Part shown: positions 32,359 through 43,640 of the stretch, piece by piece
How the letters are laid out: each line of letters starts with the position of its first letter
Position numbering within the stretch: position 1 is the first letter of the stretch
Origin: Siphonodentalium dalli
Taxonomy: Eukaryota; Mollusca; Scaphopoda; Gadilida; Siphonodentaliidae
Assembly (NCBI GenBank): GCA_032622095.1
Contig: CP136064.1
Coordinates: 189,521,794-189,585,793 of the forward strand
DNA: 64,000 bases
Direction: 5' to 3'
Notes under the pieces: generated by a model
Database searches by the model: none
Seen by the model: the letters and a program-made list of their open reading frames with translations, nothing else
What the model was told of the DNA's origin: nothing
Made by a program: the position numbers and the translations under genes

Positions 32359-32366
32359 GCCTCACC
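32359..32366. repeat. 8-bp target-site duplication GCCTCACC, left copy
   Basis: Identical to 33641-33648. The two copies bracket the palindromic element exactly. Confidence 0.85.
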
Positions 32367-32388
32367 GGTTACGTAGCGTTTTTCCGAA

Positions 32389-32612
32389 GACCCATAACTC
32401 CGAAGGTCCGATTCTCCGAAGGTCAGATTCTCCGACGCCCCGATTCTCCGAAAGCCCATAACTCCGAAGTCCCGATTCTCCGAAATCCCATAACTCCGAA
32501 GACCCATAACTCCGAAAGCCCATAACTCCGAAGGCCTATAACTCCGAACGCCCATAACTCCGAAGGTCTATAACTCCGAAGGGCCGATTCTCCGAAGGTC
32601 CGATTCTCCGAA
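32389..32612 (+). repeat. 16-bp minisatellite, 14 units, left arm
   Basis: Every unit is exactly 16 bp and ends in CTCCGAA (one unit CTCCGAC). Two variants alternate: a GGTCCGATTCTCCGAA type and a GCCCATAACTCCGAA type. Because 3 x 16 = 48 is divisible by three, a spurious 16-residue peptide repeat runs through it. Confidence 0.95.
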
Positions 32613-32648
32613 GATAATGTTTTATCGCTTATTAAATAGTGTACAGTC

Positions 32649-32924
32649 CAGTGGCGGGGTCAATGGGGCCCTAGGGAAGACCGCCCCCAAAAAACATGTC
32701 AAATGTCATGTAAACGTCAGGAAATCCCTCCTAGGCATTCAAATATTCACAGTGTTCCTGCCCAGGGGAGCCCCCGGACCAACGATTGGGGGCGACCCCT
32801 CCCATGTATGCGCTCCCCAAATCAGGCCTTCGTGATATGCTTTCGGCATATCGTATGCATGATATATCCCCCACATATGCTAATTAATGTGCACCCCTAA
32901 ATGGGAACCCTGGCACCGCCACTG
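32649..32924. repeat. hAT-like MITE copy in the left arm
   Basis: Ends CAGTGGCGG and CCGCCACTG. Its interior (ACATGTCAAATGTCATGTAA) matches the reverse complement of the copy at 33076-33267. The octamer before it (GTACAGTC) is the complement of the octamer after the partner copy, so both were duplicated together with their flanks. Confidence 0.65.
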
Positions 32925-33075
32925 GTGTGCACCGGGTATATTATAACGAAACGCTGCAAGAATGTCAGAGTAGCCTAACATGCACAGGGGCGACAAGTTC
33001 TTCCCCGTTCACCCCTGTACATTTTACTCTGGCATCTCATGGGCCAACGTAACGTTATAGTATCTGGTGTATAGT

Positions 33076-33267
33076 CAGTGGCGGGCCAGGATTCCCATTT
33101 AGGTGGGGGCAGTAGGAAAAGTTTGAATATTTTGATGCCCCATGAACGATTTCCGGGCGTTTACATGACATTGGACATGTTTTGGTAGGGGCCCATATTG
33201 TCTGAAATAGCAAGTAGAGGTTTAATGGGGGCAGTGGGAATTTTGGGACCCCTTGGTTTCGCCACTG
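33076..33267. repeat. hAT-like MITE copy in the right arm, inverted
   Basis: Ends CAGTGGCGGG and CGCCACTG. About 84 bp shorter than its inverted partner at 32649-32924. Confidence 0.65.
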
Positions 33268-33314
33268 GACTGTACACTATTTAGTAAACGATAATACCCC
33301 GATAAAACACAATC

Positions 33315-33634
33315 TTCGGAGAATCGGACCTTCGGAGAATCGGACCTTCGGAGTTATGGGCCGTCGGAGAATCGGGCCTTCGGAGTTATAGGTCTTCGGA
33401 GAATCGGCCCTTCGGAGTTATAGGTCTTCGGAGTTATAGGTCTTCGGAGAATCGGTCCTTCGGAGTTATGGGCTTTCGGAGAATCGGATCTTCGGAGTTA
33501 TGGGCCGTCGGAGAATCGGGTCTTCGGAGTTGTGGGCCGTCGGAGAATCGGGTCTTCGGAGTTGTGGGCCGTCGGAGAATCGGGTCTTCGGAGTTGTGGG
33601 CCTTCGTAGTAATAGGTCTTCGGAAAACCGGTCT
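33315..33634 (-). repeat. 16-bp minisatellite, 20 units, right arm
   Basis: Nineteen exact 16-bp units beginning TTCGGAG or GTCGGAG and one worn unit, in the opposite orientation to the left array. The order of the two variants is not a mirror of the left arm, so the arrays have expanded or converted independently since the palindrome formed. Confidence 0.95.
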
Positions 33635-33640
33635 GACACC

Positions 33641-33648
33641 GCCTCACC
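33641..33648. repeat. 8-bp target-site duplication GCCTCACC, right copy
   Basis: Matches 32359-32366 at every position. Confidence 0.85.
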
Positions 33649-36760: not shown

Positions 36761-36867
36761 TAGTTTTATGGTGTCAAATCGGACCTCATAAAACCCGGTC
36801 ATCTCTTATACAGAGCGGCCATTCTTGAGTCGCACATAAGTGGTTACCCATACGCTGTCATCCCTTT

Positions 36868-37250
36868 ATTCCGAGGGTCCAATACCATGAATACTCTGAG
36901 TGTCCTATATTACGAAGGTCCAATACTACGAAGTTCACATATTACAAAGGTCCAATACTCCGAAGGGCCTATATTCCGCATAGCCAATATACTATAAAGG
37001 TCCCAAACTCTTAAATGCCCAATATAGTCAGAAGGTCTGATACTATATAGGAAGGTCCAATAATCCGAAGGTCCAATAATACGAATGTTCTATATTTCGA
37101 AGGTTCAATAATATCAAGGTCCCATATTACGAACTGCGTTCAATATGCCGAATATCTTAAATTCCGAAGACCCAATACTATCAAGGCCAGATACTCCGAA
37201 GGTTTGATACTCCGAAAGCCCAAGAGTCCGAAGGTCCAATACTCCGAAGG
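36868..37250 (+). repeat. degenerate array of the 16-bp CTCCGAA minisatellite family
   Basis: About 24 worn units of the type GGTCCAATACTCCGAA, many with ACGAA in place of CCGAA. The best-preserved units are at 37195-37250. Same period and core as the arrays at 32389 and 33315, but without an inverted partner next to it. Confidence 0.8.
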
Positions 37251-37719
37251 TCAGATTATTATAAGGGCGGTCAATTGATATTCGTATGCCAATATAATTA
37301 TTTTTAAGCCTCTACCATTTTATGAAAATGATTTCAGTGACTTCGCAACAGGGGTTTGAAGGAGTCGCAATTGCAGCCACAGGCACCTGGCGATGGGGTA
37401 AAAACGCCAGAATACTAATAAATACTGTATGAGAGACAAGGTTCACAAGTGATATTTTTCAAACTGATGACGGAAGCTGCCATGTATTATCTCAATGCTT
37501 CTGCAATATGAATGATGGCAATTGGAAATTTCACTAGGGAAATTTTGACTATTTTGGTGCCAAATCGGACCGTGAATTTTTAAATGTATACATTAATCTT
37601 ATCGATATATCGACCATGGTTAAATCAGTAAAGCAAACTGTTATGAGCTCTCTATGGGCACAGGTCACTTGGTACATAAGCCAATAGTTGGCAGACAACC
37701 CACATCCGAAATGAAAATG

Positions 37720-40796: not shown

Positions 40797-40799
40797 TCA
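40797..40799 (-). other. single in-frame TGA in the retrotransposon ORF
   Basis: Separates RNYV from PIQANNSRYNL in one continuous frame. The following context is CCA. No frameshift accompanies it. Confidence 0.9.
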
Positions 40800-43421
40800 T
40801 ACATAATTTCTTAAAATTGATGGAGCAGTTCCTCGTATCATTTTAAAAAATTGGCATAGCTTGTGTTTTCTACGGCGTGAAGAGAGGAGTTCCCAGCCAG
40901 TCTCTGACAAAAGGCACGCGTTACTCGTACTGATGGTTGCACCTGTTACTATTCGGGCCATTTCATACTGAACCTTTTCAATGTCATCACTAAGATAATC
41001 AGGGCAGTTATCCCAAACAGGGGAGGCATATTCCAGTATTGGTCGGATAAATGTATAATGTATTTTTTCAAGCGTTACTCTGCTTAGCTTGTATCTGTGT
41101 TTACGTACTAGATTTACTCGACTCCATGCTTTGTCAAGCATAGATCTGATGTGGATACCCCAAGAGCCCATGTTGTCGAAAGTAAGTCCCAGATGTTTAT
41201 GGCTGTCAACCTCAACAATTGTCGCGGTTCCCATGGTCAAATGTGGATGATATACTGGTGTTTCTTTCCTGGAGATTAAGAGAGATTCCGTTTTCAGGGG
41301 ATTGAATTTTACAAGCCATTCTGATGCCCAACACATGAGAGTTTCGAGGTCATCGTTGATTAGTTTTGCGGCCATGGTGGGGTCTTTGATAGTAAGAAAT
41401 AGAGAAGTGTCATCAGCAAATAGACGAATGTTGCACCGTATATTTTCGGTTATATCATTAATATAAATTAAAAACAGAAGTGGGCCTAATACTGAGCCTT
41501 GCGGCACACCTGCTGTTACATCTTGTAGTTCCGAACGTGTGCCGTCTATGACAACCTGTTGTTGTCTACATTCTAGATACGATTTCATCAAGTTATACAA
41601 GTTTCCTCTTATACCAATTTTTGTCAGTTTGTTCAAGAGGCCACGGTGCCAGACTTTATCGAATGCTTTACTTATGTCACAGAATATACACCGGACCTCT
41701 TTTCCGTCGTCTAATGATCGACATATATTGTCATATATTTCGGTAAGTTGAAAAACTGTTGAATCGTTGCGCATGAAACCAGCTTGATAAAATGATAGGA
41801 GTTTGTTTTCATCAAGAAATTCCCATAGATATTTATAAATACATTTTTCATAGACCTTTGAGACGCAGCTTAGTAGAGAAATTGGTCGGTAATTTGATAT
41901 AAGACCGGGATCACCACTCTTAAATATAGGTGTAACATGTGAACGCTTCCACTGGTGTGGGTAGTAATTGTTTTCGGTAAATGTTCTAAAATAGAATTCA
42001 AGAGGTTCACAGAGCGAGGTGGCACAGCTTTTCAAAACTCTCGGACTTATTCCGTCGGGCCCACTTGACTTAGATATTTTAAGACTTTTTAACGCTTTGT
42101 AAATGTCAGGGGCTGTGATTTTTATATCGCTTAATGTGGATATGGAGTTATCCGGTTCAATGACTGGTTGGCGTTTCCCGATGTCATCAACTGATGAAAT
42201 TTTACAAAAATACGAATTGAAAGCATTTGCTTTTTCAGTTGGTGAGATCAGGAAGTCGCCGTTGGTGTTCAAGGGGGGTATTGATCTATCACTGGTAGCA
42301 AATACTATTTTTTGGAGGGTTTTCCACCAGGAAGACTGGTCATGTGATGGGCTATTCAATGTGTTCTCATTCTTGGTGTCATAATCACGTTTGCTTTTTC
42401 TAATAGCCGATGTAGTTTCATTACGTTTAGATCTGAAGTTTGCCCATGTTTGTGGTGTGTTTTTCCTTTTAGCTATCTTATGTAATCGATTTCGTTGCCT
42501 CATCAGTTTCCGTACATTACACGTAAGCCATTGGGGACTACCTTTCCGGATAAGAACTATCTTATTGGGGATATTGTCACTGCATACCTTTTGAATTTTT
42601 GCAGTCAGGTTATCTGCATGAGCTGAAAGTTCGAATGGTATATTATCATCATAGTTCCAGCTCAAGAAGTCTTCGTTCATGGTATCGAAATCAGCCAGAT
42701 TATAATTCCAGATACGTCTAGTGAGAGTTGTAGCCGATTTATTTTTCAAAAGTTTTATCTGAGCAACGACCGGACAGTGATACCTAATTGTGTTGTCGAA
42801 TATGTTGCCAAGAACACAAGGGGAATCAACAAGGTCAGGGTTGCTAGTCATGAGCAAGTCGAGAATGGATGAGGAATTTTCAGTAAAATGCGTTTTATCA
42901 GTGACCAGTTGGGTCAGACCTCGTTCGCTACATATGCCGTTTATTTTACCATTACCGTTGCGTACATAGTTTTCATTGAAATCTCCACCTATTATGACAT
43001 CCAGGTCGCTATCGCGCGCAAGAGAAATGTTATCATTAATTTTTGTCCACAGGCTTGCGGGGGAGTTGGGAGGGCAATAAAAACATCCTACAAGACAACG
43101 TTTTGTGTTAATTGTAACCTCTATCCAGATATTTTCTACTTCGTCACTGTCAAGTTCATCGCATATTTTGAATGGTATAGTGTCACGAACGTAAATACAC
43201 ACACCCCCTCCTGTTCTGCCATCTATCCTGTCTTTGCGGGCAGGATCATGGTAGCCAGGAAGGTGGATTTCTGAATCCGGGATAGAATGATCGAGCCATG
43301 ATTCGGTTAATAGACATATGTCGTATTCCCCAGTTGATGTTACGGCTGCAAGTATATCTACTTTATTTCTGATACTCTGTGTATTCAGTACAAGTACCGA
43401 GTGATTGTGTTGTTCGGTTGA

Positions 43422-43448
43422 GGGGCCTGGGTTAGTCTCCACGTCTCC
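43422..43448 (-). other. 2A ribosome-skipping motif GDVETNPGP
   Basis: Exact match to the consensus D-V/I-E-x-N-P-G-P. Skipping would occur between G and the final P, releasing a 38-residue leader and leaving Pro at the start of the endonuclease-RT. The run of ~25 hydrophobic residues immediately before it, starting at the ATG, would act as a signal peptide if skipping fails or is incomplete. Confidence 0.9.
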
Positions 43449-43640
43449 TGCCAGGATCAAAAGAGCCTTTGCTAAAGATACCGCTAATACTGTTAGAAAT
43501 GTCACGCATGTGAAGAGGAATACAGTTGTGTGTGACATCGCAAATTTAGTGTTCAACTTCGTCTTTTTATCATCGGAATTTGGAGAATTAGATAGTTTCT
43601 TGCCTGCCAAGATATGTAAGATTTAAAATATTTTTGAATT

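Follow-up and report, generated by a model that had tools for sequence, protein, structure and literature searches.

A recently multiplied foldback transposon of Siphonodentalium dalli that appears to resemble Mutator-type foldback elements

Results

The window, i.e. the whole stretch of 64,000 nucleotides analysed here, harbors at positions 32367–33640 an insert of 1,274 bp that forms an imperfect hairpin. Inspection of the sequence confirmed the boundaries, the length and the exact target-site duplication given in an earlier note made from the letters alone: the sequence GCCTCACC is present on either side, at 32359–32366 on the left and at 33641–33648 on the right. The first bases of the insert are GGTTACGTAGCG and its last bases are CCGGTCTGACACC. 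The terminal motifs are asymmetric, since the 5′-motif GGTTACGTAGCG (32367–32378, plus strand) is unlike the 3′-motif, which reads GGTGTCAGACCGG from the outside inwards (33628–33640, minus strand), and both are located outside the inverted arrays.

The 5′-array (32383–32613, plus strand) is composed of 16-bp units, each comprising the 12-bp core CTCCGAAGRYCC and a 4-bp spacer, either ATAA or GATT, and the 3′-array (33314–33624, minus strand) contains 16-bp units in inverted orientation. Both arrays, which were also picked up independently by TRF, follow a strict 16-bp lattice, the 5′-array filling 15 slots and the 3′-array 20; the earlier count had been 14 and 20 units in opposite orientation. 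The two unit variants do not strictly alternate, as had been proposed, but are ordered xABBABAAAAAABB and xAAAABABAABAABB. One variant, GTCCGATTCTCCGAAG (32393–32613), contains a second TCCGA at an offset of 8 bp, which may point to an origin of the 16-mer from an 8-mer.

A sub-array spacer (32614–32648, plus strand) has its mirror image at 33268–33313, with 84% identity over the aligned part. It is followed by the left inner unit (32649–32924, plus strand), which is MITE-like with the ends CAGTGGCG and CGCCACTG, and the right inner unit (33076–33267, minus strand) carries the same ends and is 74% identical to the left one over the aligned part. Such ends are indeed present in the inverted pair formerly described as hAT-like MITEs, but their identity as hAT MITEs is unproven, because no 8-bp duplication was seen around either unit. 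The center is occupied by an imperfect hairpin with a short loop and arms that are 71% alike (32925–33075). The element as a whole forms a foldback structure, yet the palindrome described before is imperfect: the arrays are approximately 84% complementary, the spacer is 84%, the inner units 74% and the core 71% alike, so that the inner arms range from 71 to 84%. Elsewhere in the window, a 937-aa open frame on the minus strand (40797–43610) with endonuclease and reverse transcriptase domains represents a non-LTR retrotransposon; the N-terminal part of this frame contains GDVETNPGP, a sequence characteristic of 2A self-separating peptides.

When the flanks were rejoined with one copy of GCCTCACC, a frame of 86 aa on the minus strand was open across the junction, as the earlier note had claimed. 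More than 20 paralogues that lack the insert are present elsewhere in the genome and match residues 1–86 of the rejoined frame, one example being C1:147034288-147034539 with 89% identity, whereas the window locus itself matches over residues 1–69 only. The insert-free paralogues span the junction; therefore, the element landed in a member of another repeat family, and the boundaries receive independent confirmation, although minor differences in length (84 codons as against 86 residues) prevent this comparison alone from proving the exact base of the junction. The site hit by the element carries HVWGCCDTTSALFGHG, which is similar to the HAFTGNDYVSAFFKKGK motif of a protein element at C9:27.47 Mb described below.

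Copies in the genome

A search of the 2.23-Gb genome (9 contigs) with the element yielded 40 scored copies, complete or almost so, with 94–98% identity, distributed over all nine contigs. The 23 bases of the 5′-terminus GGTTACGTAGCGTTTTTCCGAAG, allowing for up to 2 mismatches, are found at 1,059 places and the exact 3′-end GGTGTCAGACCGGTTTTCCGAAG at 619, as compared to none for the respective reversed patterns, which is far more than chance would give. Hence, the foldback transposon postulated from the single locus is borne out, and further copies with the same ends, the search for which had been proposed, are abundant.

Exact target duplications flank 38 of 45 complete copies, with a length of 8 bp in 28 and 9 bp in 10 cases; four more have a duplication with one mismatch and three have none. 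The chance expectation for exact duplications in these copies is approximately 0.0007. The expectation of 8-bp duplications in other copies therefore holds for the majority, but not for the 10 copies with 9 bp, in which both element ends are unchanged. The target sites display only a weak palindromic tendency, RTTNNAAY, and no strong consensus.

The mean pairwise divergence between copies is 2.25% (35 copies), far below the divergence of 16–29% between the arms within an element. The greater divergence of the arms shows that the palindrome is old and that its amplification, from a single master, is recent. The copies range from 1,048 to 1,442 bp in length; since this variation resides mostly in the arrays, the arrays gain and lose units. 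Two copies on C1 (110.73 and 113.24 Mb) have the duplication TCGTATCC as well as the flanks in common, and therefore reflect one insertion that was copied together with its surroundings.

Taken together, the element is a real, recently multiplied non-coding transposon with about a thousand near-identical copies, which inserts with an 8- or 9-bp duplication and has spread in a recent burst. As it is devoid of coding capacity, it was moved in trans.

A second, older lineage

When ends were sought that start with GGTTAC but continue differently, a second, older lineage came to light. Its 5′-ends GGTTACGTACCTTTATTCCGAAG occur at 118 places and its 3′-ends GGTGTCG(A/T)CCCTTTATTCCGAAG at 73, and neither was found in the controls. 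Both lineages have the termini GGTTAC and GGTGTC in common, as well as the array plan of a 12-bp core and a 4-bp spacer. In the sister arrays the core CTCCGAAGRYCC is kept and the spacer is RATA instead of ATAA or GATT; the units were picked by their core, which in part predetermines its conservation. One member of 6.56 kb, at C8:113578468, has an 8-bp duplication that differs at a single position, AACCCTCT on one side and AACCCTCG on the other. The window itself contains a decayed old end of this lineage (36854–37255, plus strand), in which a 16-bp array comes after the 3′-type terminus GCTGTCATCCCTTTATTCCGAGGGTC.

At several loci the sister arrays are expanded, namely to approximately 124 units at L044/L047/L051 (C3:79.03 Mb), 98 at L057 and 52 at L046. 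At C5:22978280-22994727, sister 5′-ends recur every ~1.6 kb in a single orientation, which looks like the conversion of a foldback element to a tandem satellite described for Tetris.

Search for the transposase

At least 150 matches to the MULE domain (PF10551) are present in the genome, many of them in open frames of 200–480 aa, and none is shown to lie inside these ends. Among the copies read, a minority of the 1,059 copies and of the MULE flanks, no transposase-bearing copy with these ends was found, and thus the autonomous relative anticipated by the earlier note did not emerge; the two leads turned out to be a chance neighbour and a nested element. The former is a MULE gene at C1:214712637, 214717712 and 214722793, in each case 2.1 kb inward of an exact 5′-end; this end belongs to an ordinary non-coding foldback copy adjoining the gene, and C1:214712637 is the best MULE neighbour detected. 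Gene and adjoining copy form a triplicate tandem at C1:214712637-214725178 with a spacing of ~5,080 bp.

The second lead is a protein beside the sister end at C9:27470304. It belongs to a multi-copy element at C9:27.47 Mb (L085 from 986) encoding a long protein with the motifs EADTKVVLH and HAFTGNDYVSAFFKKGK and a weak likeness to DUF6589. Every other copy of this element starts immediately inward of the array, at its inner edge (query 286–288), and the element therefore represents a nested insertion. Moreover, coding sequence was not found in the sampled 800-bp middles of the long 6.56-kb and 5.5-kb sister elements, open frames in the sister loci gave no Pfam match above the cut-off, and none of the MULE matches listed has one of the listed sister ends within 20 kb.

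Discussion

The data presented here identify the insert as a non-autonomous foldback DNA transposon mobilised in trans, most likely by a Mutator-like enzyme (MULE, Phantom/Foldback branch) encoded elsewhere. The Mutator/Foldback assignment is preferred because the mixed 8- and 9-bp duplications, the asymmetric termini outside the arrays and the subterminal array of ~16 bp match elements of this group (Tm1, Muta1 and Tetris). In the Mutator/Foldback group, duplications vary between 8 and 10 bp without a strong consensus, as seen here in the 28 and 10 of 45 copies, and the ends are long and built of short tandem repeats with terminal motifs outside the inverted part, which likewise applies to this element. 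On the other hand, 8 bp dominates here, as opposed to the usual 9, and the foldback architecture alone is no proof of a MULE, because a convergent origin is known from Galileo, which employs a P-type transposase. The identity of the transposase as a MULE is thus inferred.

In the proposed mechanism, the transposase would bind, in both arms, to the 12-bp cores CTCCGAAGRYCC that recur with gaps of 4 bp, a plausible role for the 16-bp array, and would thereby bring the two element ends together. The cut would be placed outside the GGT termini, and insertion would occur at a staggered target of 8 or 9 bp.

These results do not uphold the involvement of a hAT or P transposase suggested in the earlier note. 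A hAT transposase making 8-bp duplications could account for the prevalence of this length, for the CAGTGGCG ends of the inner units and for the weak target preference RTTNNAAY, which includes the hAT-like nTnnnnAn. However, it is unlikely to move the foldback copies: duplications made by hAT and P enzymes are of fixed length, and the mixture of 8 and 9 bp fits neither of them well, 10 of the 38 exact duplications being 9 bp long with both termini intact. Furthermore, the outer ends are GGTTAC and GGTGTC rather than CAGNG, and the CAGTGGCG units are internal and devoid of a duplication of their own.

An undescribed transposase family, or another known enzyme such as Merlin, KDZ or Academ, appears improbable as the mover of both lineages. 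The failure to find an autonomous copy among the copies read would be in line with it, as would the long protein with the HAFTGNDYVSAFFKKGK motif joined to the sister end at C9:27470304, but the starts of its other copies at query 286–288 identify the latter as nested. We also consider it quite improbable that a non-MULE transposase serves both lineages, with the conserved 12-bp core and the changed spacers reflecting a new type of end recognition by a superfamily that has not been described so far and whose duplications are 8 or 9 bp long. A Galileo-like THAP/P transposase is very unlikely to move these ends. Galileo combines long, internally repetitive ends with a P-type transposase; it makes 7-bp and P elements make 8-bp duplications, in contrast to the mixture of 8 and 9 bp observed here, and the termini differ as well. 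Finally, there is virtually no chance that the structure is a minisatellite or inverted-duplication artefact, because, even though 16-bp arrays exceed 100 units at sister loci, the copies are dispersed with unique flanks, and the target duplications and empty sites, including the insert-free paralogues that answer the empty-site check proposed earlier, already refute it.

Returning to the Mutator-type reading, we assign the element to a new non-autonomous family whose mode of operation is that of Mutator-type foldback elements, a kind that is itself already known. A full-text literature search returned no described foldback elements of molluscs, and no described family with these ends was found. 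Around a thousand near-identical hairpins of 1.2 kb, generated in one recent burst, represent a large stock of inverted repeats in this genome from which rearrangements and small RNAs can arise and minisatellites can grow. Moreover, two lineages that share the array core and differ in the spacers offer a natural comparison as to which bases a Mutator-type transposase reads.

Among the known systems, Tm1, a Mutator/Foldback family of root-knot nematodes, combines asymmetric terminal motifs outside the arrays (A1 being CGGTTAA), arrays of 13–15-bp repeats and 8–10-bp duplications without consensus with a Phantom MULE transposase (PMC3169594). The likeness to our element includes the short asymmetric motifs outside the inverted repeat (CGGTTAA versus GGTTAC), followed by a short inner motif and a variable number of tandem repeats, as well as the duplications of 8–10 bp and the many non-autonomous members. 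In contrast, the 13–15-bp repeats of Tm1 have another consensus, CGATTCAGTATCCGC, its duplications are mostly 9 bp long, a copy with the Phantom transposase is known, and ~60 elements were analysed as compared to ~1,000 copies here.

Muta1 of Aedes aegypti, which encodes a MULE transposase, generates 8- or 9-bp duplications and contains 12-bp repeats with spacers of 3–4 bp (PMC5225508). Muta1 and related MULEs thus share the duplication lengths and a repeat plan close to the 12 + 4 bp found here, and the non-autonomous derivatives of Muta1 also vary in repeat number. However, its ends measure 145 bp with 9 repeats, its transposase of 504 aa is encoded by the element, and its non-autonomous copies have heterogeneous interiors, in contrast to the single palindrome that is uniform among the copies here.

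Tetris of Drosophila virilis is likewise a non-autonomous foldback element with 8–10-bp duplications for which the transposase was not found, and it yields tandem arrays (PMC4079207). It differs by internal repeats of 220 bp, ends of up to 1.7 kb and few complete copies. The TU elements of sea urchin, described by Lieberman et al. in 1983, are likewise reported to be foldback elements with an outer domain of ~15-bp tandem repeats and 8-bp duplications. Galileo of Drosophila (P superfamily) is foldback-like with long, internally repetitive ends, but differs in its P-type transposase and duplication length. Considering these systems together, the element appears to most resemble the Mutator-type foldback transposons known from flies, mosquitoes and nematodes.
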